Part shown: piece by piece, positions 6,944 through 43,412 of the stretch
Layout: every line of letters starts with the position of its first letter
How positions within the stretch are numbered: the first letter of the stretch is position 1
NCBI GenBank assembly: GCA_037176885.1
Contig: JAWWNJ010000007.1
Location: forward strand, 3,162,001 to 3,226,000
Source of the DNA: Favolaschia claudopus
Lineage: Eukaryota; Basidiomycota; Agaricomycetes; Agaricales; Mycenaceae
Length of the DNA: 64,000 nt
Reading direction: 5' to 3'
Notes under the pieces: generated by a model
What the model was told of the DNA's origin: nothing
The model's database searches: none
What the model saw: only the letters and a program-made list of their open reading frames with translations
Program-made: the position numbers and the translations under genes

Positions 6944-9900
6944 CTACACCTTCGGCTCCGCCGTATCTTTGCCTTGTGCATTGACATGTCTCCAAAAACC
7001 AGCATATAAAGTGTTCGCACGGCGCTTGCGCTTACCCGGCACCTCCTCAGGCAACACAACCTCAGCATCCGCATCGTCAGCCTCTCCAAACAAACCGAGT
7101 CCAGCCTCAGAGTCCGTCTGAGTCTTAAGCTTCCGATTTGACCGTGTTTTCTTCGTGACGACGTGATCGATAACCTCGCGCGTAGGGATCTCTGAGTCGT
7201 CTTCACCGAGTTCTTCATCCTCGTGAGGCTCGATATCCTCAGCAACCTCCTCCTCATCACCCGGGCAGTAGTCGCGAGTCGATTTGTTTAGTAAGTCATC
7301 CCACAGCTTGGGGTTGTCGTGTCGCAGGTTGACGAGTCGATCGTTAGTGTCGAGCGAGGTCATGCACTCGTATGAAAGGTTTAGTCCACCACGAATCGGA
7401 CACATCGCCCACGCCTGGGAGATTTGTATGAGTAGAGCAATTGTCCGAGGTATGTCCCTACCTTCAGAATCAGTTCCTTGTGTTGAGTTGCTTTGTATCC
7501 TTCCCAGATCCATCCAACACTCGCGTCGCGCAATACCGGTTTCGAGGTGTCAAGATCCAAGCCTTCTCCTTTACGACGTTGCTCCAGGAGAGTGTCGACA
7601 AGCCAGGAATGGTAAGCTACCTTGACAGCGTGTTTGAATGGCCGATTAATACCCACATCCAGAGGCTGTCCCACACCGGTGCAACCGCCGGGAACGAAGT
7701 CGACAATAATGTTCTTGTGATTCTCTTTCATGTAGTCCAAGAATGCGGCAGATCGGTGAACAGACCAAACATCAATGATGAGGAGTGCGACGCGCCGCGA
7801 GTCCCACCCGTGCTCGGCCTTCATTCGGTCGAGAAACGGAATGAGTACGTCTTCAATCCACTCCCGCATCGTCTTCTGAGATGACCAGTGATTCTGGACT
7901 TTGCCGGAGAAGACAAAACGGAATTGCGCGGCATCGCAATCGGCCTTGTGGTTCGTTGCCGTAGCTTTGGGAACACTTCGCGGTGACTTCCCGTCATAGA
8001 CGCATTGCGTCGGAAGCTGTTCGCCAGCGGCATTCACCGCGAGGAGTGCGGTAAATGCCCGCTTTTCCTCGTTTCCGACGAGTGCAACCTGCTTTGACCC
8101 ACGAGGTGCGTAAGTCATCTTCGATCCCGGTAAATAGATCACTCCAGTCTGGTCTGCGTTAATGACGAGCTCCGCAGGGATTCGATGCTCTTTGATCAGG
8201 TACGCGCTGATAGACCCGGTATTGGGCCAGGGCTGAATTTATTCATTTTCAGTTCAAGTGCTATTGTATTAAAAGCGTAATACATTAAATACCAAGGGAA
8301 TACGCTCGTATGAGGACTGGCGTTTGCCTGAGCGGCCAGTTAAAGGATTATACACTAAGTGGGAGGTCTGGCACTGTCTACGACTGCGCTGGTATAGCGT
8401 GGAAGTTATAATATTCCAGAACAGACCTATCACGATAGGTCTCTAACCATCCGGAATAGGATTGGGAGTCGCCTTGTGTTCCGACCAAAGGCAGAATGAG
8501 TGGGATATTACTTGGAACTTATAAGAACCTGCCGAAAGGCCAGAAGGAGTGTTTCCTGGAGGCAAGAGGCTTTCACGAATAATTCTATAAACCAATTGCG
8601 AGGGATTTGCGGACGCAGAATATTCCTACAAGGAACTACACGTCATGCCGAGGTGGCTGCCGCCGTATTACGATCAAGGAGCACGGTCCGAGGAGGGACA
8701 CCCATTAATGCCAATTTGGGCAATATTGATTAGGCCGCAGCGGGCCACTGTCATAACATAATGATCGGGATAAGGGAGTGGAACTCAATGCACTTTTGAT
8801 CCATTTCCTGTTCTGGCAACCAAGGATAGGGCGAGGGCATAGCGGGCCCTAGGTTTCTCTCACCATATACCCGTTTGTCAATTGTTCGGTCTCTTATTAT
8901 TTATTAGTGAAAGGTATAAAAGGTATCGTTTCCTGTACTGGTACTCTAGTGGATTCCCTCCTCTCGTTGTGAGCGTCAAGCCAGTATTGGCTTCGTGAAC
9001 AACTAGACGTTGGACTCCATTCGAGATAAACTCCAGAAGCTTATTTGTTTCTTTGGTTTGTTTCGTCAATATATACTGTCTGTTGGATCATCTCTTGAAT
9101 TGTACGCGTGGAATATTGGAAATTTTGGGAACTTACGCGTGGAATTATAAGAACTTTTGGCATACGGACGCGTGAAACGGTTATTGGATATCTTTCGCGA
9201 GTGATATATTGGCGCTTTAACAAGCAAATTAAACACCTAAACCTCTTGAGAAGAGTTACATCTCAAACCCTTGTTGAAACCCACACTTCCTGTGTCAACA
9301 TAGGACTCGTATAGACGTTCTCTGTACAAAGTCAGCAATCGCGAAAGCTTAAGTTTAGTATATTTTGAGTATTAGGATAGTTGGATTGCCACAGTCTATA
9401 CTGGACTGGAACCCCGAACCTCGCACGTCGATCTCATAGTGGTTAGGATTATATTTAGGATTTGATTAGGGATTTAATTCCTTTCATTTCTTGGGTGTTT
9501 TCCATAGTTGCCCTATAGTCAGCGTTTCATCTGGAGCCCACCGCGAGGGGTTCATCCATCTATTTCTATACTTCAAAGTAGAAATCTCAAGCCAAGTTTG
9601 GACTTGTTGCGTATAGAAATATCTCTACCTTCTTATACAGGATTATACCTTGGACTTACATCCGAGAAGAACGAATTATTCGTTAAAAGCGCCGTTGACT
9701 TAGGTCAACGTTTCGGTGCAACCAGACTCGTCAGAAATATCTGCGGACGGCGAACTTGCTTCCACATCTTTCGCGAAACCTAAACCACGCCGGTCTAGTC
9801 GGTTAAAAACACCAACAGACTTAGATCCTCTTCCTAGGAAGAAAAAGCGTACTCCTACTGAGGCAGGTAGATCACAATCTCGAGCCAAAGTTAAGGAACG

Positions 9901-12900
9901 GGTTACAGCGCACAAAAGAAAAAGCAAAAGCTATCACGAATACTCTGTCGAACAAAAGCACACAATCTACCATAGAGGAGGAAGTCGAAGAGGAATACAC
10001 CAATCCTCCAGACTCTCCCTCTGCTATACAAAAATCCACAAAACCTGTACCTTCTATGTGAGATGGGCGGGTCAATGCTGTAAAAGTTGGATAGCTCAAT
10101 TTAGAGTTGTACTGCTTGAGCAGCGCCAAAACAAAAGAGTCGAATTTGCCATCTAAAATTTTCCGACTCGATTGATTTATCGAGAGAGATGTTAGAAGGC
10201 ATAATTGATAAAGGCTCAAAAGAAGATCTATTCGCTGAGAAGGATCTGCGATTGAAAGAAGTTAGTCTGAAAAAGCCTGGAGCAATCGCGAAAGGCGCCG
10301 ATAGTGATGAGAACGAATCGGACTCAGATAATGAGGAGAGCGAAGAAGCTCTGGGCTTGGACTTGAGCTGAGCGGAACAAAAGAGGAGTTCCACACGAGT
10401 CAAAGGCAAAAACACAGAGTCACATTGAAAGGAGTGTAGCGAAATATTCTAAAGAAGAATACTAGTTGGCATTCGCGATAGGCTGTAACGACTGAAAAGA
10501 GTTGGTCGGGGTATACGGCTAATGAGCGGAAGTGTAGACTCTAAAAGCAATGACGAGGAGAGTGGTAATTAACAGAACAATAAGGGCAGAGAGTGGAAGG
10601 TGGACCTCCGCAGTTGAGGGAGTTCTGCAACTCGTGACCGGTTCTGTTAAAGAGAGGGTTAGCACCCTTTCGTGAAAAAGGGGAGCTGCTCACGGGAGAG
10701 GGTAGTTAGGCATTACCGGTGGGTAGTACCTGTTCCCGCTTATGTTGGGCATCGAGGACGCGTCGAAGATCGGTGAGCAAGTACTCGCGGTGATCAAGGT
10801 GATACCGGAGTTGGGCATTCTCGAAGCCGACTCGCGAGCGAAGTTCTGCTTCTTGGAGTCGTAATGCGCCCATCGAATCGGCTGTGGAGCTTTTGACGGC
10901 ATCCCGTGCTTCGGCAACAGTTTGGCGGACTGTTGGGTTGTTAACTGATAAGTCGGTTGCTTCGAAATAAGTCAGAAGCTGGCTTAGAAGCAATCGCGAA
11001 AGCTAAAACGCACCATCGTACTGCTCGACTGAGTCCTCATGCGCGAGTGGCTGTGAGGGACGTGCACGTTTCCGTGGTGGTGGAACGGGGAAGTCTTCAA
11101 CGACGATGGCTGACGCTGAACTTGGATCAGTACGGGCAAGAATGGCCATAGCCTTGATATAGGAGGCAGAGTTTCTGTCAATCCCCTTGATGCGAAGAAA
11201 CGAGAGGCGTACCGAAGAAGGACGCGTACTCCCAGACTGCGAAGTCTGAGGCAGCAATAAGAGGAAGTGGCGAGAAGGAAGCTATCGTGACAGGTCAATA
11301 CTCACCGCAGGATTGCGCTCGTCAAGAGACTGAGTCGCCCGGTGACCAGAGGCACTTGCGTCGTTCTGAAAATTGCAAAAGTCAGAATTAATGACAGCAA
11401 TAATGAATGATAAACGCACGGAGTCGTCCACAATCATGGCGTCGTCCACAAACCCAGGAAGCTCAGAGTCGTCGAAGGGAGATTCATCTCCATCTTCGAT
11501 AGTGGCCTTAGACTTCTTGGTCTTGTTGTCCTTCTGGGGTTGTATTGAGCAATCGAGACAAGCTGAAATAAGGAAATATACCTTAGCGCGAGGAGCGCGG
11601 GGCTTTCGCGAATTCTTGCTCTCTTGATCGTCAGCCTGAGCACGAGCCTCTTCGAGTTCGGTACGGTGTGCTTGCTGAGAAGCTACGGTGTTTCCTCGTT
11701 GGAGCTCGCGCTCGGCCTTGATCTTAGCACACAACTCGAGAATAAGAGGATAGCGACCGCCAATAACGCCGTTGGATCCGACAGCAGTCTGGTGGTAGCT
11801 GTTTTTGACGCTATAGAAAGCATCGTAGAGAGTCTTGTCCTTCGCAATCTCGCCGAGAAGGCCAGAGAACGAGTCCTGACAACGCTATGAGCATTCGCGA
11901 AAAGTGTTAAATTATTAAAACGCACCAAAGTAACAGTCTGTTGGTCGAGGAATGTGCGCTGCTTAGCACGGTCGGGGTACTTGGTCGCAGAAACGCTGTC
12001 TGCGACACCGACGATGGCGTCGTGTTGACCTTTAGTGAGACCGGAGCGAGCCATGTTCTTGAGAGAGGGATACTGAGAAAAGATACTGCTGTAAGGAGTG
12101 TAGAATGCTAGCTCTTTATAGCTAGGCGAGTGGATGGACTCCGTCATAAACAGTTAACTGGGGACAGTTAAAATTTATGAAAAGGGGAGGAGTAGGAGCA
12201 ATCATGATAGATTGCGGGATAAGCGGAAAGAGCGGCCGGAGTTGAATTCTAAAAGGACTTAGGATTTCTATAGACTCTGGAGTTCAGAAATATAAAGGGA
12301 AACTTTGATCGGTATAAGAAATACTGTGATCGGGATAAGCGGAATAAGGACGCCGCATGTGTTCGCATATCAAAGCGTAATACGACCGAAAACAGGAAAA
12401 TTACCGAAATAGGAAGTAGAACAGAGAACCGCACCAGTCTGTCTTGGTCTTTTGACGCAAGCGATCCGAAGATGAGATAGCGATAGGAATAAGCAAAGAT
12501 GGCTTTCGCGATTGACTGAGGAAGTGGAATTCAGTCGTTCCTTGACAAACACATGGATTCCTAAGAGCTAAGAACTACTCTAAGGGACTCTACAAGTGGA
12601 AAGGACTCGACTTTATACTACTTAGAGCTAGAAGAACTACCAGCTTGAGAACTACTGTACAAGCTTAGTCGCACTATCTCTTGGACCATACAGTCCTCCA
12701 CAGCCGATGGCCCGAAGGACGCCTTCATGCCTTCCATGCGCTGAATCACAAGTGCCTTCACATCAGCGGGATACTCGTAGAAGTCGAAGAGCATGTGCAA
12801 GTAGCACAGGCTAGGGAAGTCTTGGATAGCCTCGACTTGGGAACGCAAGGAAAGGTGTTGCTTGTCAAAAGGAGCGACACACTTGTTGAAGTCGTAAAAG

Positions 12901-15900
12901 GCTGCTTGACAGTCTGCGAAGAACTGCACCTCCCACCCGCGATACGCTTCGACTGGGAAGGGAAAATGAGCATTCGTGACAGACTAAGGAAGTCGAGAAA
13001 CGCACCGGGATCAGGGTTGATCCTAAAAATCACTTGCTCCGCATGGCTGCGCCGCGACTCCAGAACCTCCACGAACTTGAGTCGGTTGGTAAAAGTGCAA
13101 GTAGCACCAGTGCCATCGATGAGACACTGCGAGCAAGGTTGACCCCATCTGAGGAAAGTCCCAGACTGCACACAAGAAGTCTGCAGCATGGGATGAGTAT
13201 TGGAATCGATCGCAGGGTTCTGAGACGAAGAGCGTCAGAGGAATTCAGCAATCGTGATAGAGTAAACTGCGAACCGAGTCGAGTAACTCATCACTGTGTG
13301 CACGAATACCAAAACGTTTGAAGGAATCCGGAGAGAGGATAGGGAAACCATAGGAGGTAGCAGTTCCCAAGAGGACAGGGACGACAGGAAGTCCACGGCG
13401 GGCAACAAAAGGGCGAGGCGTCATGAAGGATAAAGTTGGGGAGCCAACGAAAAAGCTATTATGATTGCGCTTAAATAGATCCAAGGAATGGATTATTTAC
13501 TATTGGGGAAAAACGGAGCGATATCCGTACAGCGAGGCAATCGCGACAAAATTTCCTTAATCGATAAATGCGCACGAGGCATCAGCAAGGGCTGGTGACT
13601 TAGGATTCAAGCGTTCGCGAATGGAGAAAAACCTCGTTTTGAGGCAGCGTTGATACAATTAAGGGCAGTATAGCAATATACAAATCAGGCCCATGTATCA
13701 AAAGAGTTCCAGAACAATAGCTAGGACGATATCAAAAGAAATCAAGCAGTACGACAATATCGAAAGATATGTACAAAGATTTCGAGGTATACAAATGTTC
13801 AAAGCGATTGGGAACGCGCGCTGGTCCAAGCAATAGCGATAGTCCATCTGGTAGCGTATAATACAATATCTAACTGAAAGAGTCAGTTAAGATAGGAGAA
13901 TAAGTAAGAAAGGACTTACGAAAAATCAAGTTCCGCCTTGAGAGGAACCTTGAACGAACTCGTCACGACCAGCTTCATCAGCTGCGATAGCGTCGTCGAG
14001 GGAGATAGCCGCAGCAGTGGGCTCGGCTGAGGAATCACGAATGGCGGGGGCATCCTCCTGCATGGGAGAAGGCTCCTTGTGAGCCTCAGCATCCTCCACC
14101 GATATGACCCTCACCTCCTCTCCTTCCTCCTCGTCCATCACAGACCCCTGCGAGCCTTCGTACTGCGAGTCGTGCTCGTAGTAGTATTCGTCAGCACGAG
14201 TGCCATCAGGCATGTAGAACTCGCGCTCAGAGTCGGCGCGAGCGGTCTTGAAGAGTTTGGTATAAAACTCTACCTCCTCCTCCACAACAGAATCGATCCC
14301 AGGAATGACTTTGCCTTTGAAGGCCACCTCGGAACCATTCATGAGGGCACGCAAGTTAGCGCGCGCGCGGAGAAGACGAGCATTCGCGATAGCCACTTGA
14401 CGATCACAGAGGATCTGGGAAGTGTGAGCATCGCGGAGCTCGTTGAAGGCAGAATTCCAGCCTAAGGAAATAACGAAGTTAGAAACGCTGGATTGAATAA
14501 TCAAGGAGACGTACTTTGGTCGGAGAAGACCGTAAGTGGCTCCAAGAAATTGATGACCTGGAGGTACTCAGGGATAGAGAAGCTATCCGAGCACCGAGAC
14601 ATGCCGCTCTTGACACAGGCGTCGCAGCGGGTGTGGCCATTCTCGCGTCGGCACTTGTGATTGCGAATCATGCAATTGCCGCAGCCCATGAGACGCTATC
14701 ATGAATGCTCAGAATCGTTGAGAATGAAGCAAGAGAAGGCAATTGACGTACCAAAACGCTTGTACCTTTGAGAAGCGAGGATTGGAAGCTCTTGGGGAGG
14801 ATCCCAAGACCTTCCTTCGCTGCGCGGATGTCGAATGTGGTTGGCTCAAAGCCTTCCGCCTCGTAGGGGTCCTCCTTGTGAGCCTGAGAAGCGCCGCGAG
14901 TGGTCCGAACCTCAGCAGGACCAGGGGAAGTCTCGTCAGCCTTCTTCTTGCCCTTGCTTCTACCCTTAGAGGGCGACGGTTCCTCGCTATCACGATTGCC
15001 CTTCTTGGAACGTTTATGAGGAGGAGAGACCTCAGGTTCGCCGTCGTCACCGCTATCCTGGTCGTCGTCTCCAGCAGGCTCAAACAACTCTTCCTCGACG
15101 CGTTTGCGCTTGGAAGAACGAGAACTGGACGCAGTGTCCGACTCGTCGGCAGTAGTGCCAGCTGTTGCCTCCTCTTGCTCATCGTTGGTCTAAAGAGAGA
15201 CAATTAGGAATCAGGGGAAAAATGTTAAGACAAGAGTCTTACCTTGGACGCGCCACGCGCGCTTCGGCGAAGACCAGACGAAGGTGGGGCATCTGTCGCG
15301 ATAGCCGCAGACGAGCCAGCCTTAGGGGTCTGAAGCGTCGCATCGTCCTACAAAAACATAAGTAATCATTAATGAAAGAGAGGAATAGGTAAAGAGTACC
15401 TGAGATGTGCCCGCAGGAGCGGAGGCATCAGTCACGAAAGGGTCTTCACTGTCCATGCCGACATCCGGACCCTCCTCGCCACCAGTCGCAGAAGGACCGC
15501 CGTCAGGGCTAACTGACTGACGGTCTCCACGCGAAGCGGCGCCAGCTGCGAAGCCAGCAGCGAAGTCGCTGCCAGACGAAGTGCTCGCACGCGGAGTAGG
15601 AAGTTTGACTATTGGAGCGGGAGAGCCAGCTCTGGGAGTCTGAGGAGCAGGAGCGTCCTAATTGGGGACAATCAGCGCAAAGTACTGAGTAAAGAAACTT
15701 AGGACTTACAGTGGGGGCAGTCGCAGTATCAATCGCGATAGGGTCCGGGCTGCTGGATCCGTCGCCAAAGTTGAAGAACTTGGCAACGCTAGTTGGCGAG
15801 GGGCCACCGAGTGCGGGGCCAGCACTGCCAAAGCTAGACGAGCGAGAGAGCGCTGGAGGTTTTGCCTCGGGAGTGGACGAGCGAGACGACTCAGAGGACG

Positions 15901-18900
15901 GAGGCGTGAGAGGTCGCGCTAAGGAGGCGCTGGGGAGAGGAAGGTTGTTGACCTTGAACCAAGCGTCAGCGACGTAGTCGCGATGCGAGCAATCGCGCCA
16001 GAGGCTGAATTTCGGTGGCCGAGTTTTGCTGCCACTGGGAAGACGGTATCCCTTGGGGAGATAGTAACCCCAGGAACGAGCCTCGGGCAGAGCACCCTCC
16101 CAGCCGGGGTTGCGATCCTTCTCAGGAATGAGGGACCAGATTTCCCAAGCAGAGTTGAGGATGGCGTCAATAAAAGAGCGGTTGTCGATGTTGCCGATGT
16201 CCTGATCCAATTTGGCCTAAACATTGAGAAGCATTAGCTATCACGAAAGGTCAGAAAGAGGATGGAAACTCACCAAAGGGAAGACGCTTTGGTCCATTAG
16301 AGGCTTAATTTTGGCAACACTGGCTTCGTCAAACTTGCCCTCGATCTCGGCCCCTTGATAGGCAATGAGGGCGCAGTAGCGAACGAAGCGTTCGACGTAT
16401 TCGTTGTTGATGCGGCGGAGGTGGGAATCCTCGTAGAACGTTGGCCCGAGCTCTTGACAAGGGAAATCGTCGTCGAATTCGATGATCCCGGGCAGAGTAA
16501 ACTGCAAAGAGAGGTGAAGGATCTGAGAAACCAAGAAGTTTTATCAATACGAGATCTGTCACGAATAAGGGACGACGTACCCTGCTGATGTCCCGACCCT
16601 CAAAAGACATGGGAAGGATGCGATAAGGCTGCTTCCACCGCCCGGGGTATGCATTCTCGAACATTCTCCCAATGTTGTGGATGGCGACGAGTAGCTGATC
16701 GAAGACATCAGTGGTGTCGAAGATCTGGTAGTAGCGGGCGATCAATTGCTGAAAAGTTGAAGTCAGTAAAGAGCTGGACGAGCATTCGCGGATACTCACA
16801 GCAATTGGTTCGAAATGTGTGAGGAGCCATGCGAGCCAGTCAGGGTTCGTCTGGTGAGAGCGATAGACGTCGCGGACGTAGGGGAGTAGCCAGATAGTAA
16901 CAGGGTGGATGAAAAGCTGAAGGCAGTGGACATCCGCCTGGGTAAGCGGGTAGTCGCGAACGAGTTCCGTGGCATGTAGCGGGAAGAACGGGCGAAGTCC
17001 AGCCGGATAGCTGAAGTCCGCGGGCTTGAGATTGTAAGGGACGATGTGACGTCCCTCAGCATCTGCAGCCTGGTACTGGGTCACCGACATGGAGTCCAGG
17101 AAGAGTGTGTGTTCGCTAACGCGAAAGGTGTTGAAAGCGTTCTCAATGGTGAGGGCAGCGTTCTGAGTGACTTGAGCTGTAAAACAGTCCAAGGCAGCCT
17201 GTGAGACTCTATACTACACATATAAGCCAGCCACGTACCCATTGAGTGTGCTAGAGCTGTGGTTTGAGTATTCGCGATAGGTGGTTGTGGTGGGGAGAGC
17301 AGAGAAAGTGAGAGAAGGACTGCGGCAAAACAAACATAAATCACGTGGATTTATTGATGCGCACGGACCCACTTTGCTCGCGCAAACTCCGCACACTCTG
17401 AACACGATAATTGGCGATTGTAGGCGTCAGTATAGGCGATAATGAACACTTATAAGTGTTTTCGGGATCTAAGCGAGGATCCCGCTGTCTATCAACGGAA
17501 GCAAATCTCGCGGGACCACACCGGTCGCGATAGCCGAGTTAGCCGAATGACTGTGGGAAACACTTTTGATAGCGTAAAGAGGGCGCAAAATAAGGACCAA
17601 GTGTTGAGTGGGGACACTCAATTTATGAAAAGGGGAGATGATAGACCCGGTATTGGGCCAGGGCTGAATTTATTCATTTTCAGTTCAAGTGCTATTGTAT
17701 TAAAAGCGTAATACATTAAATACCAAGGGAATACGCTCGTATGAGGACTGGCGTTTGCCTGAGCGGCCAGTTAAAGGATTATACACTAAGTGGGAGGTCT
17801 GGCACTGTCTACGACTGCGCTGGTATAGCGTGGAAGTTATAATATTCCAGAACAGACCTATCACGATAGGTCTCTAACCATCCGGAATAGGATTGGGAGT
17901 CGCCTTGTGTTCCGACCAAAGGCAGAATGAGTGGGATATTACTTGGAACTTATAAGAACCTGCCGAAAGGCCAGAAGGAGTGTTTCCTGGAGGCAAGAGG
18001 CTTTCACGAATAATTCTATAAACCAATTGCGAGGGATTTGCGGACGCAGAATATTCCTACAAGGAACTACACGTCATGCCGAGGTGGCTGCCGCCGTATT
18101 ACGATCAAGGAGCACGGTCCGAGGAGGGACACCCATTAATGCCAATTTGGGCAATATTGATTAGGCCGCAGCGGGCCACTGTCATAACATAATGATCGGG
18201 ATAAGGGAGTGGAACTCAATGCACTTTTGATCCATTTCCTGTTCTGGCAACCAAGGATAGGGCGAGGGCATAGCGGGCCCTAGGTTTCTCTCACCATATA
18301 CCCGTTTGTCAATTGTTCGGTCTCTTATTATTTATTAGTGAAAGGTATAAAAGGTATCGTTTCCTGTACTGGTACTCTAGTGGATTCCCTCCTCTCGTTG
18401 TGAGCGTCAAGCCAGTATTGGCTTCGTGAACAACTAGACGTTGGACTCCATTCGAGATAAACTCCAGAAGCTTATTTGTTTCTTTGGTTTGTTTCGTCAA
18501 TATATACTGTCTGTTGGATCATCTCTTGAATTGTACGCGTGGAATATTGGAAATTTTGGGAACTTACGCGTGGAATTATAAGAACTTTTGGCATACGGAC
18601 GCGTGAAACGGTTATTGGATATCTTTCGCGAGTGATATATTGGCGCTTTAACAAGCAAATTAAACACCTAAACCTCTTGAGAAGAGTTACATCTCAAACC
18701 CTTGTTGAAACCCACACTTCCTGTGTCAACATAGGACTCGTATAGACGTTCTCTGTACAAAGTCAGCAATCGCGAAAGCTTAAGTTTAGTATATTTTGAG
18801 TATTAGGATAGTTGGATTGCCACAGTCTATACTGGACTGGAACCCCGAACCTCGCACGTCGATCTCATAGTGGTTAGGATTATATTTAGGATTTGATTAG

Positions 18901-23000: not shown

Positions 23001-23071
23001 CCAACCAGTAGATTCTTCACTAGAATACGCCCTCCCCGCCGACCCCATGTCTGACTTGCGCGTTGGTCAAG

Positions 23072-27224: not shown

Positions 27225-27260
27225 TCTCCCCTTCACTAAATCTAGACCGTCCCCGGTCTA
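27225..27260 (-). other. Polypurine tract and hairpin of element 2
   Basis: On the minus strand: stem TAGACCG, loop GGGA, CGGTCTA (27260-27243), then GATTTAGTGAAGGGG and AGA up to the LTR. This is the same order as in element 1, with a different stem sequence. Confidence 0.8.
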
Positions 27261-32644: not shown

Positions 32645-33265
32645 CTCTCCAGTTAAACCTTTCCGCCTTCTAGACTTGATCGTCCTTCCGCGGCCTATAT
32701 ACCTATGTGCCTTCGCTCTTTAGACACATAAACCGTCGACTCTCAGTATTCCCTATCGTATCGTCGTGCGTTCAACCGCACATATTTGCTGTTCAACCAG
32801 CAACTGTCCAAATCCCCGGGTGTCTCGTATATACTTAGCAGTGCTTGCAATACAATTGTTTTGTCAAGCCAACTTCGTCTGATTTCCCGCAGTCTCTTGG
32901 ACATCTCAGGAGTGGTAAGACTCTTTTTCCGAGCTCAGAATTCCAAAAATAGAACTCCAATCGTCCAGTTTCTACTTCAACTTCTCAAGTACTTCAAGCC
33001 GCCGCGGAAGCCTTTTTATGAACGACTCCATTGCCGTGACCGCCTACATGCTCCTTGAAGCCCTTATTCCACTGGATATTGTGCGCCTCTAAGTCTTGGC
33101 AAGCCTAGACTTCAAGTCTCACTCCTTTACTTTCCTCCGTCCCGCTTATGATCAATACAAAATCTGATTCAAATAATCACAGGCAAGACATCTCCTCAGC
33201 AGTGTTTACTATTTAAACAGTGCCTCATAGGAACGTTTTCTCCCATAATATTCTTTTCTCTTTGC
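32645..33265. other. Spacer between accessory genes B and C
   Basis: No gene seen. Two CCGCGG sites (32687, 33001). No hairpin/PPT-like copy precedes gene C. Confidence 0.5.
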
Positions 33266-34009: not shown

Positions 34010-34065
34010 TCCTTCCGCGGAAAAGTTCTAATTTAAGATTACAGAGGCGCATACCACCACAATCT

Positions 34066-37000
34066 TTAATGCTTCCTGCGTTTGGACCGTCTAGGACCAA
34101 TCGACTCTTTTGGCTCATCGTCCGACTCTGCTTCATCATCATCGTTCCCAGTCTCCGATTCTGAGGACTCAGCCTTTTCGGAGTCTTCAGGTGTTACCCT
34201 TATATTTACTTTATCGAAGGCTAGATCCTTTATCTTCTTTGAGCTGCGCTCCTTTGTCTTTTCCCCTTCCGCGGGAATATCGTCCACTAGCTTTTCGAGT
34301 GTCTCCGTAGATACATCAATAAACTTTTGGATGTTGAGCGGAATTTGCATTCGGCGACGTGCTAAGTATGGAACCACACGCCCCGCGGCTATCCTGTCAT
34401 GGAATAACGCGCCGTTCATTTCAGCTAGGATATACGCTCCTCCCTTGGTACGTCTTATAACAACCATTGGGCCAAGGTACCTCCCCTTCTGATCCATCTT
34501 AGAGTTCAGCGACTTCTCTACTTCAGTGTGGCGCACGAGAACCAGATCTCCCGGTTTGAAATCATAGTTTTTAATCTTATGTTCATTGTACCGTTCGAGT
34601 TTACGGACCTGAACCATTTTAGCATGATCTACACGCTTCCTCATGTGTTCAACATGGGCAACATGCTTTGCTAAAGCTCTGGCTCTTAGCCCTATCAGTT
34701 CCGCGGTCGTCAACACTCGACCTGGTATGTCAACCAACCAAGTAGCTTCCTCAATATCCAACGGTAGAATTGGATGCGCTCCAGTCACCGCAAAATAAGG
34801 TGAACAACCTAATCCTTTTCTAACCGTTACTCTGTCTGACCAAAGCATAACATGGAAGAACCAGAACCATTTGGATGGGTTCTTGCCAGTCGCTTTGAAC
34901 AATGCCTGACGCATTTGGAAGTGTCCGCTTTCAATCTTCCCGTTCGCTTGAGAGTTGTACGGTGAAATCTGAATATTTGGTATTCCGTATTTCTGTTTCA
35001 ACCATTCCACAGCTTTCTTGAACTGCCCCGCATTATCCGTAACAATCTGCTTTGGGCAACCCCAACGGCAAATGATTTCTTCAAACAGGAACATTCCAAT
35101 TGCGTGAGCCGTGTCTCTCACAAGCGGTCTCGCTTCTAACCAAGAACTCAACGAGTCCCTAGCATCAACTACTAGTCCACATTTATTGGACACTTGCCCC
35201 ATCACCATTACATCGGTATGGATGACCTGAAATAGACTTGGAGTATGGGTCAAAACTGGCGGGACTTTCAACAGTGTATGTTGTCGGTTTTGGCAAGCGT
35301 CGCAAGACGCAATGTACCAAAATACATCTGCTTCTATTCCTGGCCACCAGAATCGCAGCGTAATCAATTCTCTAGTTGCATAACTTCCGCGGTGACCCAG
35401 ACTGTCGTGAGCAGCCTTCATCATGTACATGCGGTGTTCCTTGTCAACAACTAACTGATTCGCAGTGCCAAAAGATTTCTTATACATCCTCCCCCCTTTC
35501 AAAAAGAAATGTGAGGCGAAGCGCATAAAACTTCTATACTCTGCATCATCATTCATTCCCGCGGGCCTTTTCATAGGGTCCGCTAGCCATTCCTTTACCA
35601 ATGGTAATTTAGCATCTCGCTTTTTCATCCAATCCGAACGATGCTCTTCATCGTAAGGCTCTCGCTTCGACTCATCCCATTTCAATTCTAAATTTGGAAT
35701 CAGAGGCTCCGTCATTAAAATATACTCAGGGATCTGCTTATTCTCCTTCGAGTACGCTTCTCTGCGTGCTCTCGCCAGATTAGCTTCAGTCATTCTGGCA
35801 TTCTCGCAATCACGTTGGAAATCATCCATACAAACTGCATCAACGTCCACCATTTCTGGCTGTTCCTCCTCCGACTGGAAATATCCACCTCTGGTATCAA
35901 TAAGGTGTTTAAAGTCCTCGAATTCCAACGGCTGTGGGCCTTCCGCGGAAACGTCCTCATGGTCCTCGGGAGGTTCATTTTGGTCATAACCCTCTTCCGA
36001 ATTTTTGAATTGTTCATCCCCAGGGAAAGGATCTCTCCTTGATAACCCGTCGGGTGCAAACTTTTCACCAGGGACATGCTTCAGCTTAAAATGGAACATC
36101 AAGATCTTTTCAATCCAGCGGTTAATCGTGGCGTTGGGGCCCATTCCAGGGTTTTTCAACATGCCCTTGATGTATAACGCGTCGGTTTCAACCACAAGCT
36201 TCCTTGCTCCGAAAATCCAATAATACATGGCCTCTAGAGCTCTCATCAACCCGTACAATTCTCGTTTAGGTTGCGAATAGTTCGCCTCGGTCTTCCCTAA
36301 CGTTATACTCGCAAATCGTGCAAAGTATTTCTTCTTAGGATCATCTGGGTCTAGCTGGTAGATAATAATTCCCACAGCTCTCCATGAAGTATCCACTTGA
36401 ATTACTATGTCCGAATCCCAGTCGTACCTCAGGGGTTTTAAAGCTGGGCAGTTTTTCAACCTTTCTCTAATTTTGGCCTGCGCCTCATCACAGTCCGCGG
36501 TCCATACAAAGGGAACGTCCTTCTTCGTTAACTCATTGATAGGTGCAACAATGTCGCCGTACCCTTCAATAAAGCTCCTCAGCACACCAACCGTGCCCAA
36601 GTACGCCTTCACTTGCGTGAAAGAGTCACAGGAACCCCAGTTATTAATAACGTCCACCCTCTTAGGATCGGGAATTCTTCCGCGGTAAGAGCAAATATGC
36701 CCCACAACTTCAAACTCATCCGCACAGAGGACTAACTTCTTCCCTGAAAAAGTCCCTCCTGCGTAAGCCATTCTAGTCACAACTCGATTTAAATTCTCGA
36801 GATGTTCCCAGATAAATCTTCTAATTCCAGGATTCGCAGCAATCCTTTCCCAATCGCCATCTTTTGTCTCGTACCTCGTAGGTCCCCCGCGGACAGGTAC
36901 ATCGTCTATGTAAGGGATTGTTACATGCGGCATTTCATCTCTCAAGATGGTACAAACGTCCTCGTGAAACACGGGAACAGAATTGGTCCATCCCATCGGT

Positions 37001-38328
37001 AATTTTACTAACCTCAGTGCCCCAAACGGCGTCTGGAAGGTTGTATAATCCCTTGAAGATTCCGCTAAGTCCCTGTTATCATATCCGACAAACATATCCA
37101 ACGAAGCTCCGCACGCTCGACCAGCAAAATGTTCTGCTAGCTTCTCCGTGGCTGGAGGTACCCCAGAGTGTTGAATTGTAACCTCATTCAACCTCTCTAA
37201 CGCGTGTACAATTCTCAATGACTTTCCATCTTTCTTTATCACCGCAAAAATAGGTGACCTGTAGGACGAGTTGGATGGTTCATACACCCCAGCATCTAAT
37301 TTTGACTTGATGATGCGGCAGAACTCTTCAAAATGTCCAGGCGGAATTGGAATTTGCGAGCATACCCATGGTGTATGTGGTACCACAGGCATATCAACGG
37401 GCGGGAAATATTCATGCTTGAATTGCCCACGCTCATCCTCTTCCCAGGCGAAATGCTCGTTATGCAACATCATAAAATGATGAAGCAACTTCATCTCCTC
37501 AGGCAATAAGAACCCAGTGTTATGAGTCTTTTCAAATGCCTCCATTCGCTCCGCGGTATATCTTCCTACTGGGTGAATCTCAGGAATATCCGTTTCTATT
37601 TTCGGCATATCCTTCAAAGGGTCCCCCGTGATATTCCGCACAATCCTGAACTTCGCATCCACTTTTCCAAGGATAGGCTTAATCTTTTCCGCGACCGGTT
37701 TGTACTTCTTAGTAGCAAATACTCGCTGTTTTCCCATAGAGATGCCCAAATTTCCAAAAATAAATTGCTCTCTTGGTACTTCCGGCACCGGTACTTCAAA
37801 ATTCAGCTTCCCCTTCGCAGCAGGGACTGTCTTAGCTCCCTCTGCCTTCGAAGTCTTCTTAGACTTCTTCTTCTTCTTTTTCTTCTTGTATTTTCGCTTT
37901 CTACGGTTCACTTTCGGCTCACGGTCCGCCGCCTCCGCGGAACTATTTTTATCATCATTCACGCGGGAATCTCGCTCCATGTAGGCAAACGCAGAGTTAG
38001 CCGAGCTATCACCCGGATTAGGTGCATGCTTTCCACGGTTCGATTTTCTCGGGCTTCCCGGGCTTCCAGATTCCGTGAACAAGAAGACATCTGTGCCTTT
38101 ATCTTTCTCTACCTGCCCCGCGTATTGATTCAACAATACACTAGCATTCTTATCTCCTGCAAATGCGTCCCTAGACGCCAATAAATATGCCATCGTCCTG
38201 TCATCCTGCGTAACAACATCCCCGTCTTTCGGTAAACCATATCCTGTGCACACCAACTCCCCATGGTCGTTGTACTCAAACGCGGCCATTACTTCTCCCC
38301 CATCTTTGAGTTCCTCGAAGACTTGCAA
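34066..38328 (-). CDS. pol: Pol polyprotein of element 2 (RT, RNase H, integrase)
   Basis: An uninterrupted frame of 1420 codons. After an N-terminal region with a long lysine run (residues ~143-160) comes the reverse transcriptase (LPMGWTNSVPVFHED, then YIDD at 473-476, the catalytic Asp pair). RNase H follows (QVDTSW, 'QPKRELYGLMRALEA', VVETDA), then an integrase HHCC zinc finger ('AHDSLGHRG', 'CDACQNRQHTLLK') and the DDE core ('HTDVMVMG', 'VTDNAGQF', 'PYNSQANGKIESGHFQMRQA'). The C-terminus has a GPY/F-type module ('YLGPMVVIRRTKGGAYILAE') and an acidic tail; no chromodomain is seen. It overlaps the protease frame, and the overlap contains GGATTTT, so expression by -1 frameshifting is likely. 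All catalytic residues are present, so the element may be competent. Confidence 0.93.
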   Translation of the reverse strand: MQVFEELKDGGEVMAAFEYNDHGELVCTGYGLPKDGDVVTQDDRTMAYLLASRDAFAGDKNASVLLNQYAGQVEKDKGTDVFLFTESGSPGSPRKSNRGKHAPNPGDSSANSAFAYMERDSRVNDDKNSSAEAADREPKVNRRKRKYKKKKKKKKSKKTSKAEGAKTVPAAKGKLNFEVPVPEVPREQFIFGNLGISMGKQRVFATKKYKPVAEKIKPILGKVDAKFRIVRNITGDPLKDMPKIETDIPEIHPVGRYTAERMEAFEKTHNTGFLLPEEMKLLHHFMMLHNEHFAWEEDERGQFKHEYFPPVDMPVVPHTPWVCSQIPIPPGHFEEFCRIIKSKLDAGVYEPSNSSYRSPIFAVIKKDGKSLRIVHALERLNEVTIQHSGVPPATEKLAEHFAGRACGASLDMFVGYDNRDLAESSRDYTTFQTPFGALRLVKLPMGWTNSVPVFHEDVCTILRDEMPHVTIPYIDDVPVRGGPTRYETKDGDWERIAANPGIRRFIWEHLENLNRVVTRMAYAGGTFSGKKLVLCADEFEVVGHICSYRGRIPDPKRVDVINNWGSCDSFTQVKAYLGTVGVLRSFIEGYGDIVAPINELTKKDVPFVWTADCDEAQAKIRERLKNCPALKPLRYDWDSDIVIQVDTSWRAVGIIIYQLDPDDPKKKYFARFASITLGKTEANYSQPKRELYGLMRALEAMYYWIFGARKLVVETDALYIKGMLKNPGMGPNATINRWIEKILMFHFKLKHVPGEKFAPDGLSRRDPFPGDEQFKNSEEGYDQNEPPEDHEDVSAEGPQPLEFEDFKHLIDTRGGYFQSEEEQPEMVDVDAVCMDDFQRDCENARMTEANLARARREAYSKENKQIPEYILMTEPLIPNLELKWDESKREPYDEEHRSDWMKKRDAKLPLVKEWLADPMKRPAGMNDDAEYRSFMRFASHFFLKGGRMYKKSFGTANQLVVDKEHRMYMMKAAHDSLGHRGSYATRELITLRFWWPGIEADVFWYIASCDACQNRQHTLLKVPPVLTHTPSLFQVIHTDVMVMGQVSNKCGLVVDARDSLSSWLEARPLVRDTAHAIGMFLFEEIICRWGCPKQIVTDNAGQFKKAVEWLKQKYGIPNIQISPYNSQANGKIESGHFQMRQALFKATGKNPSKWFWFFHVMLWSDRVTVRKGLGCSPYFAVTGAHPILPLDIEEATWLVDIPGRVLTTAELIGLRARALAKHVAHVEHMRKRVDHAKMVQVRKLERYNEHKIKNYDFKPGDLVLVRHTEVEKSLNSKMDQKGRYLGPMVVIRRTKGGAYILAEMNGALFHDRIAAGRVVPYLARRRMQIPLNIQKFIDVSTETLEKLVDDIPAEGEKTKERSSKKIKDLAFDKVNIRVTPEDSEKAESSESETGNDDDEAESDDEPKESIGPRRSKRRKH

Positions 38329-39674
38329 AAATCCGGTTTGGTCTCCGCGGGAGCTGTCTGGACTGGCTTTCCTGTGTCTCGATCTATCTTGACCCCCCTC
38401 TGAGAGGTTGCAAAGGTATTTTTGTTCCCTGTGCGCGGATCCGTAATTGTGATCTCGACTTCGCCGGTTCTCTTGCTCGCAAACACAGCTTCTGACAAAA
38501 TTTCGAAGGGGCGTCCCAAAAGAACTTCATAAGGCACCTCATCAATAATATGAACTTGAAGGTGCATCACTATCCCTTCAAAATTAAACGGCACATTTAT
38601 AGCCAAGCCCAAGGTGGACTGAATCTGGCTATTCGCAGCAACCATCTCACAGACTATATTTGTATTCCAAGTCAAACCAATTTCCTTGGCCAACTGAGCA
38701 TTCATTGATACAATCTGCGAGCCGCTATCCGTAATGGCTTCCACATACTTGCCATTCACTGACGGATGAATGCATCTGAGCTTTGCAGAGGAGCCCGCGG
38801 CCGGGACTTTAACAGCTTTCGCTTTTTCTCCCTCTGGTAGAGACTCATAGTATTGAAGGACAGGGTCCCCACAAATAACGCTTCCCTCCGGTAAATCATG
38901 ATCATTGGAGGTAACCAATTCAGGGAACGTGTCAAACATCAACACCGACACAGTCTTTCCATCCTCATCTACAACTTCACAAGTCGTTGTCTCAACTCGA
39001 ACGTTATCCTCTGCTTCACTTTCATCATCCGCGGGGCGCTCAGAGTCTGAGTCTTCATCCTCAAGCACCCTTTGGACGACAAAGTTGTGCACCTTGGTAG
39101 GGACAATATCACCAGAAGTAGTCTTCATAAATTTAGCTTTGTTCTTCCGCGGACCCCCAATCTCAAGAGTTTTCCGGAGCATCTCGTTACTATCCAGCAA
39201 TGTGCCTATTTTGACTGGTATCACAGTTTCCCGAATAGCGTCTGCAATCTCCGCGGTAGCTTTGTCTCGCCGCTGAGTATCTTTAGGCACTCTTGTTCTT
39301 CGTGAACCTGATGACCCTTGGCCATGTTGCTCCTCTGCTGGTTTTCGCGGGAACGCGGGTCGTACGGGAGGGTCAGACAGAGGTTTCACATCCTTGAACG
39401 GAAGTTCTTCCTTCTGATTTTTATTTCTGACACCAACCGACTCGTCCTCAGAATCACTGACTTCTTCAACGGTGACTTTCCTCGTAGGTTGAGTAGAACG
39501 CTTCGGTAGCAACACTTCAACTCTATTCTCTCTGGCTGGCTTAATGGGTGCTTTCCCATTATCTCTCTCGGCTACTGTTTCTTTTTGTTGGTTTTTCTGT
39601 TTTTCTGGAACGCGGTCTTTGGCTTTCGGATCCTCAGGAGCTTTCCGCGAGCGAGTCTCCCTCATCGGAATCAC
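38289..39674 (-). CDS. Protease frame of element 2
   Basis: Runs in the -1 frame relative to gag. A disordered, charged N-terminal half leads to the aspartic protease core 'EAITDSGSQIVSM' (catalytic Asp in DSG) and 'LLGRPFEILSEAVF', the flap/C-terminal part of retropepsins. A first ATG lies at 39665, but the frame opens before it within gag, so a gag-pro fusion by frameshift at GGATTTT (39677-39683) is the likely route. The end overlaps pol by 40 nt, again over GGATTTT (38328-38334). Confidence 0.88.
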   Translation of the reverse strand: MIPMRETRSRKAPEDPKAKDRVPEKQKNQQKETVAERDNGKAPIKPARENRVEVLLPKRSTQPTRKVTVEEVSDSEDESVGVRNKNQKEELPFKDVKPLSDPPVRPAFPRKPAEEQHGQGSSGSRRTRVPKDTQRRDKATAEIADAIRETVIPVKIGTLLDSNEMLRKTLEIGGPRKNKAKFMKTTSGDIVPTKVHNFVVQRVLEDEDSDSERPADDESEAEDNVRVETTTCEVVDEDGKTVSVLMFDTFPELVTSNDHDLPEGSVICGDPVLQYYESLPEGEKAKAVKVPAAGSSAKLRCIHPSVNGKYVEAITDSGSQIVSMNAQLAKEIGLTWNTNIVCEMVAANSQIQSTLGLAINVPFNFEGIVMHLQVHIIDEVPYEVLLGRPFEILSEAVFASKRTGEVEITITDPRTGNKNTFATSQRGVKIDRDTGKPVQTAPAETKPDFCKSSRNSKMGEK

Positions 39675-41533
39675 TGAAAATCCTTCTGAGCCGCCATAAA
39701 CTGCGCTATCTTTGCAACAGACTCCTCGATTCTGTCCAGTCTATCCGCGGTGGCAGGAGAGTCTGACTCTTCCCTGGATTCACTCGCAAACGACTCCGCG
39801 GCCGGTGCAGTGGGGTCACTAGCGTAATAATACTCAAACGCCTCTTGGTTATAATACACCTGAGTACGATTGTTATAGTAATCCCGCACTTTGGTCATGT
39901 AGCTCTTATTCTTGGGTTCCCGCGGCAAAGCCTTTCCATCATAGAAGAACATACACCCATCTTTCAGGATTAGCAGGCCCCCAGTAATATCATCCCTTCT
40001 GTGCTTGCAGTCCGCAACATAATGCGAAGGATCCCAACAATAGTAACAGCCCGTAGGCTTGCCTTCTCTAAGAGGCGGCCTATCCGGTGTATACGATGGC
40101 CTGTCTGGCCCGTATTCTCTTCTTTCCACAGGACGGCTAGGATAATTGGAGGTCCCCTTTGTCAAGGCTTCATGCATCTTAGACATGACCTGTTTTTGGT
40201 CGGTCGTAAACTTGTCCAGATGATTGGCAAGGGTCTTTTCCATTTTGTCCTCAATCTCCTTACGGAGAATTTTCTCCTCTCTGGCTTTGGAATCAGCCTC
40301 AAGCTTCTCCAATCTAGCCTTCAACTTGGCAGCTTCATCTCCACCCTCTGAACTACCCGAAAATAGAACAGCCTTCCTCTTTGTATCCGAGGGAGTTGTG
40401 AAGAAAATAGAGTCATTACTTTTGATCAACGACTTCAGTATTTCCTCAAAGTCTGCCCATTCGTACAGGTCATCAGGATGAGTGTAGGCCGGTTTATAGG
40501 CCTTTCCTTTGTTCGCAGGCAGCGCTTCATATTCAGATTTTGCTCGCTGATACGAAGTAAGTTCCGTCGGACTTCTGGCCAGCACGATATTGCGAAGAGT
40601 CTCCCTGAAGGTAGGGTGAATACCTTTCAAAAAGTCTTGCGCTAACTCGCGCCTTGAGAGCATCTCTCGGTCCTTGTTCATCACTGCAACTCGTCCGCGG
40701 AACTTTCGACAATAGTTGGCAAATTCAACTTCCTCATCTATTCTCACCGGACGGTCTGTATACTGTTTCAAGAAAGACGCCCAGCCCGCGCGGGAACCTT
40801 TCTCTACTGCACGAACTTCAGGATAAGCATCCATCAATTCCGCCTTCCATTCCTCATACGTTCCATTCGTATAGGTGGGCAAAGCTTGCCATTCTTTCTG
40901 CACTTTACTGTTCGCATAGTGGTGTGCTATCCACTTCTTGCTCTGCTCACTAAGCTTTCCTTGCTTCGCGATGATATCTTCGATCCCTTCCAAATACTTG
41001 GGCAAATCCCCTGTTTCGTCATCGAATTTCAGGTTATGTCTCCCAAAAATATCCGGGATCTTGCTCTTATCAATCTCGTCGTAGGTAGCCATAGTGTTTG
41101 TTTGTGGGGGGTTTATCTTGGCTACGGAGTTCGAAATAGCCTCGATGGTCTGATTCAAATGATCAGATAGCTCGCCGTCCGAGTGGGTTGCGTGTCCCTC
41201 AAAGGGTAATGCTGCAGAGGTATTTATAACTTCCGCGGAACGCGCTCTCCTTCTCTTCTTAACTGGTGACGAACTAGACGACCGTCCTGTACTGGAATTT
41301 TTGGTCGTACGCGGTTTTCTGCCAGACGTCGAGGGTCCCCAATTTACAGACTCGGGTATAAGACTGTTCCTTGAAGTCGACGTTTGAGCGGGTTCTTGTA
41401 GTGCAACCCTGGCTTGCTCTAGCAAACTCCTGGCACCTGCTCCTGTATTTAATGGAGACGGGCTACGCTGGTGTCTGCCTCTCCTCGACGTCTTTCTAGT
41501 ACGAGGATTTGTTTGGGCTGGAATTCTCGACAA
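39671..41533 (-). CDS. gag: Gag of element 2
   Basis: The frame is open from about 41533. The first in-frame ATG is at 41092 (MATYDEIDKSKIPDIFG), which leaves ~147 open codons upstream that look coding (basic, Ser/Arg-rich) but lack an ATG. A spliced upstream exon or a non-AUG start is possible. The capsid-like region ('SKKWIAHHYANSKVQKEW', 'AELMDAYPEVRAVEKGSR') is followed by a coiled coil and one zinc knuckle, 'CYYCWDPSHYVADC' (C-x2-C-x4-H-x4-C). It ends 'FMAAQKDFQ', its stop overlapping the protease frame. Confidence 0.88.
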   Translation of the reverse strand: MSRIPAQTNPRTRKTSRRGRHQRSPSPLNTGAGARSLLEQARVALQEPAQTSTSRNSLIPESVNWGPSTSGRKPRTTKNSSTGRSSSSSPVKKRRRARSAEVINTSAALPFEGHATHSDGELSDHLNQTIEAISNSVAKINPPQTNTMATYDEIDKSKIPDIFGRHNLKFDDETGDLPKYLEGIEDIIAKQGKLSEQSKKWIAHHYANSKVQKEWQALPTYTNGTYEEWKAELMDAYPEVRAVEKGSRAGWASFLKQYTDRPVRIDEEVEFANYCRKFRGRVAVMNKDREMLSRRELAQDFLKGIHPTFRETLRNIVLARSPTELTSYQRAKSEYEALPANKGKAYKPAYTHPDDLYEWADFEEILKSLIKSNDSIFFTTPSDTKRKAVLFSGSSEGGDEAAKLKARLEKLEADSKAREEKILRKEIEDKMEKTLANHLDKFTTDQKQVMSKMHEALTKGTSNYPSRPVERREYGPDRPSYTPDRPPLREGKPTGCYYCWDPSHYVADCKHRRDDITGGLLILKDGCMFFYDGKALPREPKNKSYMTKVRDYYNNRTQVYYNQEAFEYYYASDPTAPAAESFASESREESDSPATADRLDRIEESVAKIAQFMAAQKDFQ

Positions 41534-41607
41534 CCCAGGAAAGTCCCTTCTCTAGACTCTCCCAACTACAGCAACGCGTTTTGTTTTATCAACAAATTAC
41601 CACCGAA

Positions 41608-41626
41608 CCCCTCGCGGTGGGCTCCA
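41608..41626 (-). other. Primer-binding site of element 2
   Basis: On the minus strand TGGAGCCCACCGCGAGGGG lies two bases inside the 5' LTR, the same 19 bases as in elements 1 and 3. Confidence 0.75.
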
Positions 41627-41628
41627 GA

Positions 41629-43412
41629 TGTAACGCTGACACTTGAATATATCAACTGAAGTGCTAAATATAGCGCAGCAGAGAATCTACCACCAAAATA
41701 TATATATAACACAATCAACCAACACACACAACACTACAACACAAATATCTCCACAAGATACACTCAAATGTCTCTCGAAGAGTTCGTGGGGTTCGATCCG
41801 AAATCCAGATGTCACAGTGACGAGGATATAAGTCGACTTGCAAGTAAAAACCCTGCACAAAACACGCTCTCACACACCGTAGATGGAAGTGATTCCGTCC
41901 GCGGACCTTTCCTAAAAATAGGAACTATAAACGGTAGGATACAAGATACCCAACGTAGTTGAATATCAGGGCGAGATTGAAACAGTGGCCACAGACAGTT
42001 TCCGCGGCAGAATGCACAATTCTTATAGCGCCAGTTACGCTATAGACCTGAACCTCCAAATTCCAGGAACCTTTGACACTCCTTTATATAGCACAAGCCT
42101 TTCAGACGAGGACTAATCAGATCTCTTCCGGTTATGCGCCAGCAGTTCCAACGCAATGCTTCAGCAGATGGACAGTTCCACTCTTCCTCAGACTCAGGGA
42201 GCTCGAGCACACGTATCCTCACAATGAGATAGACAGTCCGCGGGCAGTAGAGGCAGGCAGTTCCTTACACACTAAGGCCACGACAAAGCTACTCGAAAGC
42301 AAAGCCTCCGCGGGTGAACACTCTCGAAACGATGCTTAGAATCACACTTGAACTGAACTTCAACACAATTTCTATTAAGACAAACGAGTAGACAATATCT
42401 TTATATATGCCTCTACGTTGCTGCCTGAGTTCACCAACGCTGTCCAATAGACTGAGCGCGATGTCCTCCAGCTCAACGAGAAATACAGGTCCTTTTATAC
42501 TAATGCCAAGAAATACATCACATAAATAGTACAGAGTAAGCAATGTCGATCCAATTGAGTAGAGAGATGGTATATTGGTATTTGGGTGTCCCGGAGGACC
42601 TTCGGCAGCCTCTTGGCTTGTCGATCCAGCGGTAGAAAGTCAGCACTTATGACTCTCACGGTTGAATCACTGAATTGCGGAAGCCCGCGGAACACCATCA
42701 TTGGTGATCCCGTCAATCCGTCACTTGCGGCAACCCTTCCGGTAGTGCCATCAACGCCTCTAATAACTCCTAAGACTATTCTTGGGACATTCCAATTCAC
42801 TCGCAATATCACAGGCTCGTCTGTTGTCCAATTTATCAAGCCACCAAGTCATCCGCGCTGACTCCAATATAGAAATAGATCTCTAATGAAGTTGCCGCAC
42901 TTGTTCGGCTTCAGCATCACATCATCAACACTCCTGTCAAAGACCTCATGTCTTGCCATGACTCTGCCTTCTGATCCTAGCACCGGCATCTCCTGTATGA
43001 GATCCCTTTCCGCTGTTCCAGCCGTCTATTTATAGTCGGCAGCCCGCGGCATCTGTCTTTTGACTGATGTTGACTCTGATAGCCCCCGCGGCGCCTCCTA
43101 CATCCTTGTAGACCTTTGTCTAAGTCCGTAGTACACAAGTACTTGACTCTTCGTCACTCTTCTGAGGGTTCTGTTATGGAACAGATCCATAGTACTGCAG
43201 TAGGCTATTAATATAATGCCTTTCTCCTGTGATGGGTTTTACGGTCAACAGCTCGGAGCTCACTTTGACCCTCCTCAGTGTCACCAACAGAGGTACTGAC
43301 TTCCTATTGATAGCCGAGTAAGACTATAGTCGTGGCGGGTAGTTGGGTGGTTTAGGGCCGCACTTGACTTAAAATAGCCAGATATAACGCGCAAAAATGA
43401 CCAGTCGTTACA
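41629..43412 (-). repeat. Right (5') LTR of element 2
   Basis: Same ends as the left LTR, also with seven CCGCGG sites. The right flank begins GCGCGCGTCG. Confidence 0.93.

Follow-up and report, generated by a model that had tools for sequence, protein, structure and literature searches.

Dispersed family-specific words and antisense cysteine-cluster cassettes in LTR elements of Favolaschia claudopus

The window analyzed in this study is a stretch of 64,000 nucleotides (G000:C7:3162001-3226000) from the 264.6-Mb assembly of Favolaschia claudopus. It contains two long terminal repeat (LTR) elements, element 1 and element 2, which both carry an antisense cassette of three genes (A, B, and C) and are each densely marked with a short palindromic word of their own, TCGCGA in element 1 and CCGCGG in element 2. 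An earlier note on this DNA had described this arrangement, and the counts given below bear it out. All results on further copies come from this one genome, where copy counts are lower bounds (at least), and the gene models of both cassettes are approximate. The two elements comprise the following features (ORF, open reading frame).

8208-18960, sense +: element 1
8208..9529, +: 5' LTR, paired by blastn with 17639-18960 (100% over 1322 bp)
9195..18775: TCGCGA word, 21 copies, or 19 when one LTR is counted; extended form AGCwwTCGCGAwwGCT
9530..9553, +: primer-binding site, 24 bp, identical in element 2
10048..10404, +: remnant of the pol C-terminus (tblastn with pol residues 427-549 of the related locus L036, 48%, E 1.6e-21)
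10706..12147, -: gene B, rough model; a similar ORF was seen by eye in the related locus L044
12621..13234, -: gene C with a cysteine cluster, open in two frames (one frame in the related locus L034)
13926..17090, -: gene A, several exons from ORFs and a splice model, start and exon ends approximate
14591..14683, -: six-cysteine cluster of A (CGNC..RC)
17639..18960, +: 3' LTR, its right flank GCGC repeating the left flank
25428-43412, sense -: element 2
25428..27224, -: 3' LTR with 7 CCGCGG
25698..43091: CCGCGG word, 53 copies over the whole element
28058..29970, +: gene A, exons 28058-28504, 28557-29016, and 29084-29970
29173..29265, +: six-cysteine cluster of A
30977..32641, +: region of gene B, roughly delimited from ORFs
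33266..34031, +: gene C (gene model), cysteine cluster at 33513-33608
34066..38526, -: pol, with RNase H and integrase zinc domains above the cut-off and a sub-threshold reverse transcriptase
38292..39740, -: aspartyl protease ORF (gag-asp_proteas, E 3e-7)
39674..41551, -: gag-like ORF, assigned from its open frame and location, with no domain reaching the cut-off
41629..43412, -: 5' LTR with 7 CCGCGG, 97.8% identity between both LTRs of the element

Element 1 is read in sense on the plus strand and element 2 on the minus strand because their primer sites place them so, and the plus-strand orientation of element 1 also fits its pol remnant. Between the two elements blastn (E 1e-10) gives a single DNA match, a 36-bp piece of LTR end and primer site. 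Element 2 has the LTR pair, primer site, protease, RNase H, and integrase of a Ty3/gypsy-type element; element 1 has the LTRs, the primer site, and only a remnant of pol. Scans of five minus-strand and six plus-strand ORFs of element 1 yielded no gag or pol domain, so that this element looks non-autonomous; judged from its identical LTRs, it is young. The pol of element 2 was scored for 31 out of 2250 own-genome candidates, every one with at least 99% amino acid identity, and a scan of viral contigs found no relatives of it. The flank repeat GCGC is present at both ends of element 1, while the flanks of element 2 are GCGT and GCGC. Both elements are directly preceded by AGGTACGCG (8198-8207, ...C; 25418-25427, ...T), which hints at a preferred target. 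A repeat of about 190 bp, common to 6174-6366 and 25036-25208 (two pieces, 86-88% identity), sits 1.8 kb left of element 1 and 0.2 kb left of element 2, and a DDE_1 transposase-like ORF adjoins element 1.

Word enrichment was counted with one LTR per element and compared to 500 dinucleotide shuffles. CCGCGG occurs 46 times in 16,188 bp of element 2 versus 3.06±1.70 in the shuffles (maximum 8), and TCGCGA occurs 19 times in 9,431 bp of element 1 versus 3.48±1.84 (maximum 10). Each word is the top hexamer of its own element (z 24.9 for element 2 and 8.2 for element 1), with the best z over all hexamers in 40 shuffles reaching 4.9 and 5.4, respectively. The density of CCGCGG is 2.84 per kb in element 2 versus 0.230 genome-wide, and that of TCGCGA 2.01 per kb in element 1 versus 0.290; in total, the genome holds 60,847 CCGCGG sites (68,711 for the reversed control) and 76,728 TCGCGA sites (63,389). 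Tandem element 2-type copies on another contig (C1) have 2.72 CCGCGG per kb versus 0.22 around them. These two tandem elements (C1:23442-54304), which seemingly have a common middle LTR, are visible from the CCGCGG map alone.

In element 2 the word is found in the LTRs as well as in coding and non-coding DNA, and occupies more than one codon phase in each of the three gag-pol frames. Sites of both words are spaced more evenly than random (coefficient of variation 0.72 and 0.63 vs 0.97 and 0.92). One-mismatch neighbours scarcely exceed expectation in element 2, the largest being CCGCGC (12 vs 6.1); element 1 is also enriched for TCACGA (15 vs 5.5). The sites of element 1 have preferred flanks, giving AGCwwTCGCGAwwGCT, and AGCNNTCGCGANNGCT is found 237 times genome-wide versus 30 for the reversed control. 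Among the AGCNNTCGCGANNGCT matches listed, most are one identical 16-mer that is also present in the LTR of element 1 (places compared by eye). Pairs of CCGCGG with one fixed spacing showed no genome-wide excess (11 sites vs 20 in the control).

The cassettes are antisense in both elements and located towards the 3' LTR, at about 17.1-10.7 kb on the minus strand in element 1 and at 28.0-34.0 kb on the plus strand in element 2. According to the rough models, the gene order is A, C, B in element 1 and A, B, C in element 2. The cassette genes keep open frames across many own-genome copies: the stretch 31179-31478 of element 2 B has 65 full-length matches (91-100% identical) and element 2 C has 69 near-full-length matches (88-100%). 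The A model of element 2 shows 90% identity over 100% of the annotated F. claudopus protein P0001. A is homologous between the two elements, and its six cysteines are aligned in 18 A sequences, with five of them invariant and one conserved in at least 90%. The resemblance to the Pfam family Zn_clus (PF00172) is weak: with an E limit of 10, 12 out of 18 pieces match, the best at E 0.0025, and one A member scores 9.7 bits versus a cut-off of 21. A shares with fungal Zn2Cys6 factors the six-cysteine spacing, and the words, like the sites of those factors, are built of CGN triplets; A differs in being encoded inside retroelements and in its loops between the cysteines, which often lack the basic residues that are usual there in Zn2Cys6 factors. 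Three C pieces had no Pfam match, a scan of six A, B, and C pieces found no Pfam family (no TRP28 profile was compared), and a protein search with element 1 A in two forms of query gave no match. AlphaFold predictions were poor for P0001 with three sequences (pLDDT, its per-residue confidence, 37) and reached a pLDDT of 57 for a 105-residue piece of the A cluster, for which no PDB match was found.

The N-terminal exon of element 1 A has 140 own-genome match pieces, ranging from 100% down to 28%. Fourteen loci around such matches (L031-L044) were read, and L054 (1.3 kb) was read later. As the earlier note had expected, the enrichment recurs in relatives. Loci L032-L034 (86-87% DNA identity to element 1) and L036 (45% in the A N-terminus, 75% DNA identity in the core) contain 15, 16, 15, and 15 TCGCGA, respectively, versus 2.0-2.4 expected. 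Loci L038, L039, and L040 (85-94% alike) have CCGCGGAA 8-9 times versus 0.21-0.26, along with 6-7 CCGCGG and many half-sites GCGGAA, and L044 has GCGCGA 24 times versus 5.3. The word in the cassette-bearing families read thus has a CGCG core and is palindromic except in L044. Each family read in which the cassette is intact carries a dispersed word of its own, and where the words differ between families, the A and C proteins differ as well.

Two candidates were rejected. Locus L031, considered as a domain swap within A, is element 1-like DNA joined to a different element: TCGCGA is found at 3472-5266, 28 out of 29 ACTCCG lie at or below 3331, and similarity to element 1 starts from 3210. The other element (L031 1-3330) encodes a zinc-cluster ORF (CERCVQDNAKCERR...) with a charged coiled-coil-like stretch and bears ACTCCG/CGGACT words (ACTCCG 27 vs 3.0). 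The excess of CATGGAAG in L041 stems from a nested terminal inverted repeat (TIR) element, a copy of which is found in the window at 57485-60956 with long inverted arms filled with CATGGAAG; the copy inserted into gene A of L041 is 92-98% identical over the longer aligned pieces. Further right in the window, KDZ transposase and CxC2 domains are located at 61999-63511. A third gypsy element of the window follows element 2.

44375..54723, pol on + (ORFs to 54184): element 3, own word CAGCGG

Its word is non-palindromic and occurs 43 times in 44300-54800 versus 6.4 expected; copies are present on either strand and in several phases. No LTR pair was found for element 3, and no cassette was seen in its region.

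We then compared the word among copies. In a 7.46-kb pol region of 30 element 2-type copies, 98.2-100% identical to copy L002 over the best aligned piece, 25 copies have 23 CCGCGG, four have 22, and one has 21 (L016, with a shorter alignment of 7.1 kb). Mismatches of the 29 other copies to L002 occur at a rate of 0.0010 in the word and 0.0113 elsewhere (about 11 times more), with 0.0156 in other CpG. Word columns contain four mismatch cells versus a mean of 43.9 for random 6-mers (p 0.002) and 48.5 for CpG-bearing windows (p 0.0007), and differences common to at least two copies affect none of the word columns versus 3.7% of the other columns. Between loci, TCGCGA sites of element 1 are retained in L032, L033, and L034 at 9/10, 9/10, and 8/10 versus 0.53, 0.51, and 0.51 for all hexamers (values that are non-independent, each locus also having 6-7 TCGCGA sites absent from element 1), and in two parts of L036 at 3/3 versus 0.26 and 2/2 versus 0.59; in the second part other CGCG hexamers are likewise retained (10/11). 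Taken together, these patterns support that the word is maintained by selection acting on DNA.

Several observations weigh against the view that every such family maintains a word of its own which a cassette protein reads. Low variation is also seen in 97 two-CpG windows outside the word (0.67 cells per 6-mer), and 14 NCGCGN windows show 0.5 cells per 6-mer versus 0.17 for the words and an average of 1.9. The count of variable columns is 7 versus 13.9 expected (p 0.053). Among L032-L034 themselves, TCGCGA retention (13/15, 12/15, and 13/16 vs 0.75, 0.79, and 0.73) shows little or no excess, and CCGCGG among L038-L040 is retained at 5/7, 6/7, and 5/6 versus 0.42, 0.73, and 0.44, with other CGCG hexamers at 0.57, 0.73, and 0.72. 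No family word was seen in L035, L042, and L043, which look truncated or degenerate, the word excess of L041 falls short of the threshold once the nested insert is left out, and no significant word was found in L054; L037 (1 kb) also has no clear word. Element 3 has a word of its own although no cassette was seen there, A changes in element 2-type elements while CCGCGG stays unchanged, and L036 has TCGCGA yet neither C nor B between A and pol.

For the question of which protein follows the word, A was paired with the adjacent C, and A identity was measured on exon 3 of element 2 A, which has 131 own-genome match pieces (26-100% identity). Among the 57 element 2-type cassettes with a C of at least 87%, A is at least 92% identical in five, 86-90% in 12, 72-78% in 19, 59-66% in one, and 26-32% in 20. 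Conversely, the 26-32% class of A (n=23) has C nearby in 21 cases, 20 of them at 88-99% and one at 42%, and B is near 20 of these at 91-99%. An A could be paired to 27 of the 30 pol loci: seven with an A of 26-32% carry 23 CCGCGG each, as element 2 does, and the other 20 carry 21-23. The A clusters of four of those seven (L045-L048) are strongly different from that of element 2, with other loops. Since A is exchanged with CCGCGG unchanged and B and C nearly constant, the word of element 2 follows B, C, or gag-pol. The C1 copy with an A of 73% has five CCGCGG in the A region versus three in element 2, partly in new places; the word thus persists in a region whose protein has diverged. A separate family with a C of 41-45% has an A of 34-40% (29/31); as this is nearer to element 2 A than the exchanged A is, the histories of A and C disagree.

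Within the TCGCGA family, 18 relatives have a C of 66-69% identity, and the A cluster stays. No C was found with an 83-residue query at 16 L036-type places (A 43-46%), and in L036, the sole one of these read, A and pol are separated by about 460 bp that contain no B or C. Since L036 nevertheless has the word, reading by C would require action in trans. Judged from these comparisons, no single cassette protein tracks the word in all cases; with action in trans, either view would be compatible with the data.

These results bear differently on the possible readers of the word. That the zinc cluster of A reads the word and co-evolves with it, as the earlier note had proposed, would fit the cluster being nearly unchanged from element 1 to L032 and L036 (by-eye counts of 46 and 45 identical residues out of 50) where the word is kept, and other families having other clusters together with other words. 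The covariation fails in element 2-type elements, where A falls to 26-32% in 20 out of 57 cassettes and the seven such copies with pol DNA retain all 23 CCGCGG despite the different loops of L045-L048, which makes this an improbable explanation. The word might instead be read by a gag-pol product (integrase, Gag), for example for compaction or protection of complementary DNA, recognition of own copies, or steering of integration. Gag-pol is as constant as the word in element 2-type elements, and both the word of element 3 and the combination of word, A, and pol in L036 would fit, but element 1 keeps TCGCGA with a mere pol remnant (supply in trans being possible) and the many intact cassette genes would be left unexplained; we consider a gag-pol reader unlikely, if somewhat less so than the A cluster.

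The word could also be the site of a host Zn2Cys6-type transcription factor, gathered for expression of the element. CCGCGG is an everted CCG/CGG pair, and NIT4 of Neurospora binds TCCGCGGA. Sites nevertheless run through coding DNA, evenly spread rather than promoter-centred, sister families in one host have different words, and neither word is far from its control genome-wide, so a host-factor site appears rather improbable. A function at the RNA level, with the words serving as scattered signals for packaging or kissing loops, would make use of palindromes able to pair between RNA copies, and retroviral dimer sites are palindromes of this kind. Compared with planted controls, however, the words showed no surplus of unpaired sites (p 0.60 and 0.26), complementarity between their flanks was not in excess, and 12 strand tests of flank composition gave lowest p-values of 0.01, 0.03, and 0.05, unremarkable for 12. 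With flanks that are approximately strand-symmetric and no signal of RNA structure, the word therefore probably acts as double-stranded DNA, a predicted near-symmetric protein site, and an RNA role is very unlikely. About as remote is a compositional quirk, mutation bias, or gene conversion: the copies are young and similar and two-CpG windows vary below average, but the one-mismatch neighbours are little in excess in element 2, the words of sister families differ, and divergence is lowest in the word columns.

The explanation we favor, with a confidence just short of an even balance, is that a dimeric DNA-binding protein made by the element, most likely from the antisense cassette, reads the word and keeps the chromatin of the element open. 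Element 1 and element 2 belong to a group of Ty3/gypsy-type elements whose families each maintain a short word along the element at about 2-3 per kb, in element 2 spread over LTRs, gag-pol, antisense genes, and spacers. The predicted reader, which in element 2 is more probably one of the constant proteins B and C than A, would bind at many sites per copy, in cis or in trans, and mark the element, whose chromatin would then stay open against host silencing as VANC achieves for VANDAL. A may be a fast-evolving partner or effector facing a host factor that changes, or rival elements. We observe the word, its family specificity, the selection on it, its near-symmetry, the conservation of the cassette, and the exchange of A; we infer the reader, its binding, and the anti-silencing. 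The earlier claim that cassette proteins bind the motif of their own element thus gains a family-specific, selected word resembling a DNA site and loses the link to the zinc cluster of A. DNA methylase family matches above the cut-off occur in the genome, and a TET/JBP-like oxygenase piece lies at 3015-3416 (E 9.5e-6, below the cut-off); neither ties the words to silencing. Somewhat less likely is a wider version in which families barcode their whole DNA with a selected palindrome, an element-made reader tells the DNA of its own family apart from that of the host and of rivals, and A is swapped between nearly identical elements as the front of an arms race. Changes by a single symmetric base around CGCG (TCGCGA, CCGCGG), the outer GC flanks being shared, might then represent self-recognition evolving stepwise.

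The closest known systems are found in plants. In the VANDAL transposons of Arabidopsis, a short word is highly enriched in one family and rare in other transposons, and the family-encoded VANC protein binds it and induces loss of methylation throughout the elements (PMC5735166). The words described here are likewise family-specific, dense in own copies, and rare elsewhere. VANDALs are Mutator-like DNA transposons whereas the carriers here are LTR elements, and VANC21 sites are mainly non-coding, in same-orientation arrays, with targets that are often tandem repeats (PMC5735166), whereas our word is mostly a palindrome and also found in coding DNA. Binding and methylation loss are known for VANDAL; the system described here is known from its sequence. 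Retand Ty3/gypsy elements of plants have antisense ORFs between pol and the 3' LTR with predicted DNA binding, a placement and prediction shared by our cassettes, and likewise comprise non-autonomous members (PMC11963269). Retand has a TRP28 domain and tandem repeats in place of the cysteine-cluster proteins found here, and the portion of the Retand account considered describes no element-wide word (PMC11963269). Among the open-licence papers listed (titles and starts of abstracts), we found no fungal LTR element with such words or with an antisense zinc-cluster cassette.

If the favored explanation is true, these families would provide a fungal parallel to a strategy described in plant transposons, and sequence-specific self-marking of transposons would have arisen separately in fungi and in LTR elements. 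The genome would offer natural experiments, with words that differ by one symmetric base pair and nearly identical pol regions accompanied by a swapped A. It would also provide ready protein-word pairs for binding studies, make family membership readable in DNA fragments, and possibly yield tools for chromatin targeting.

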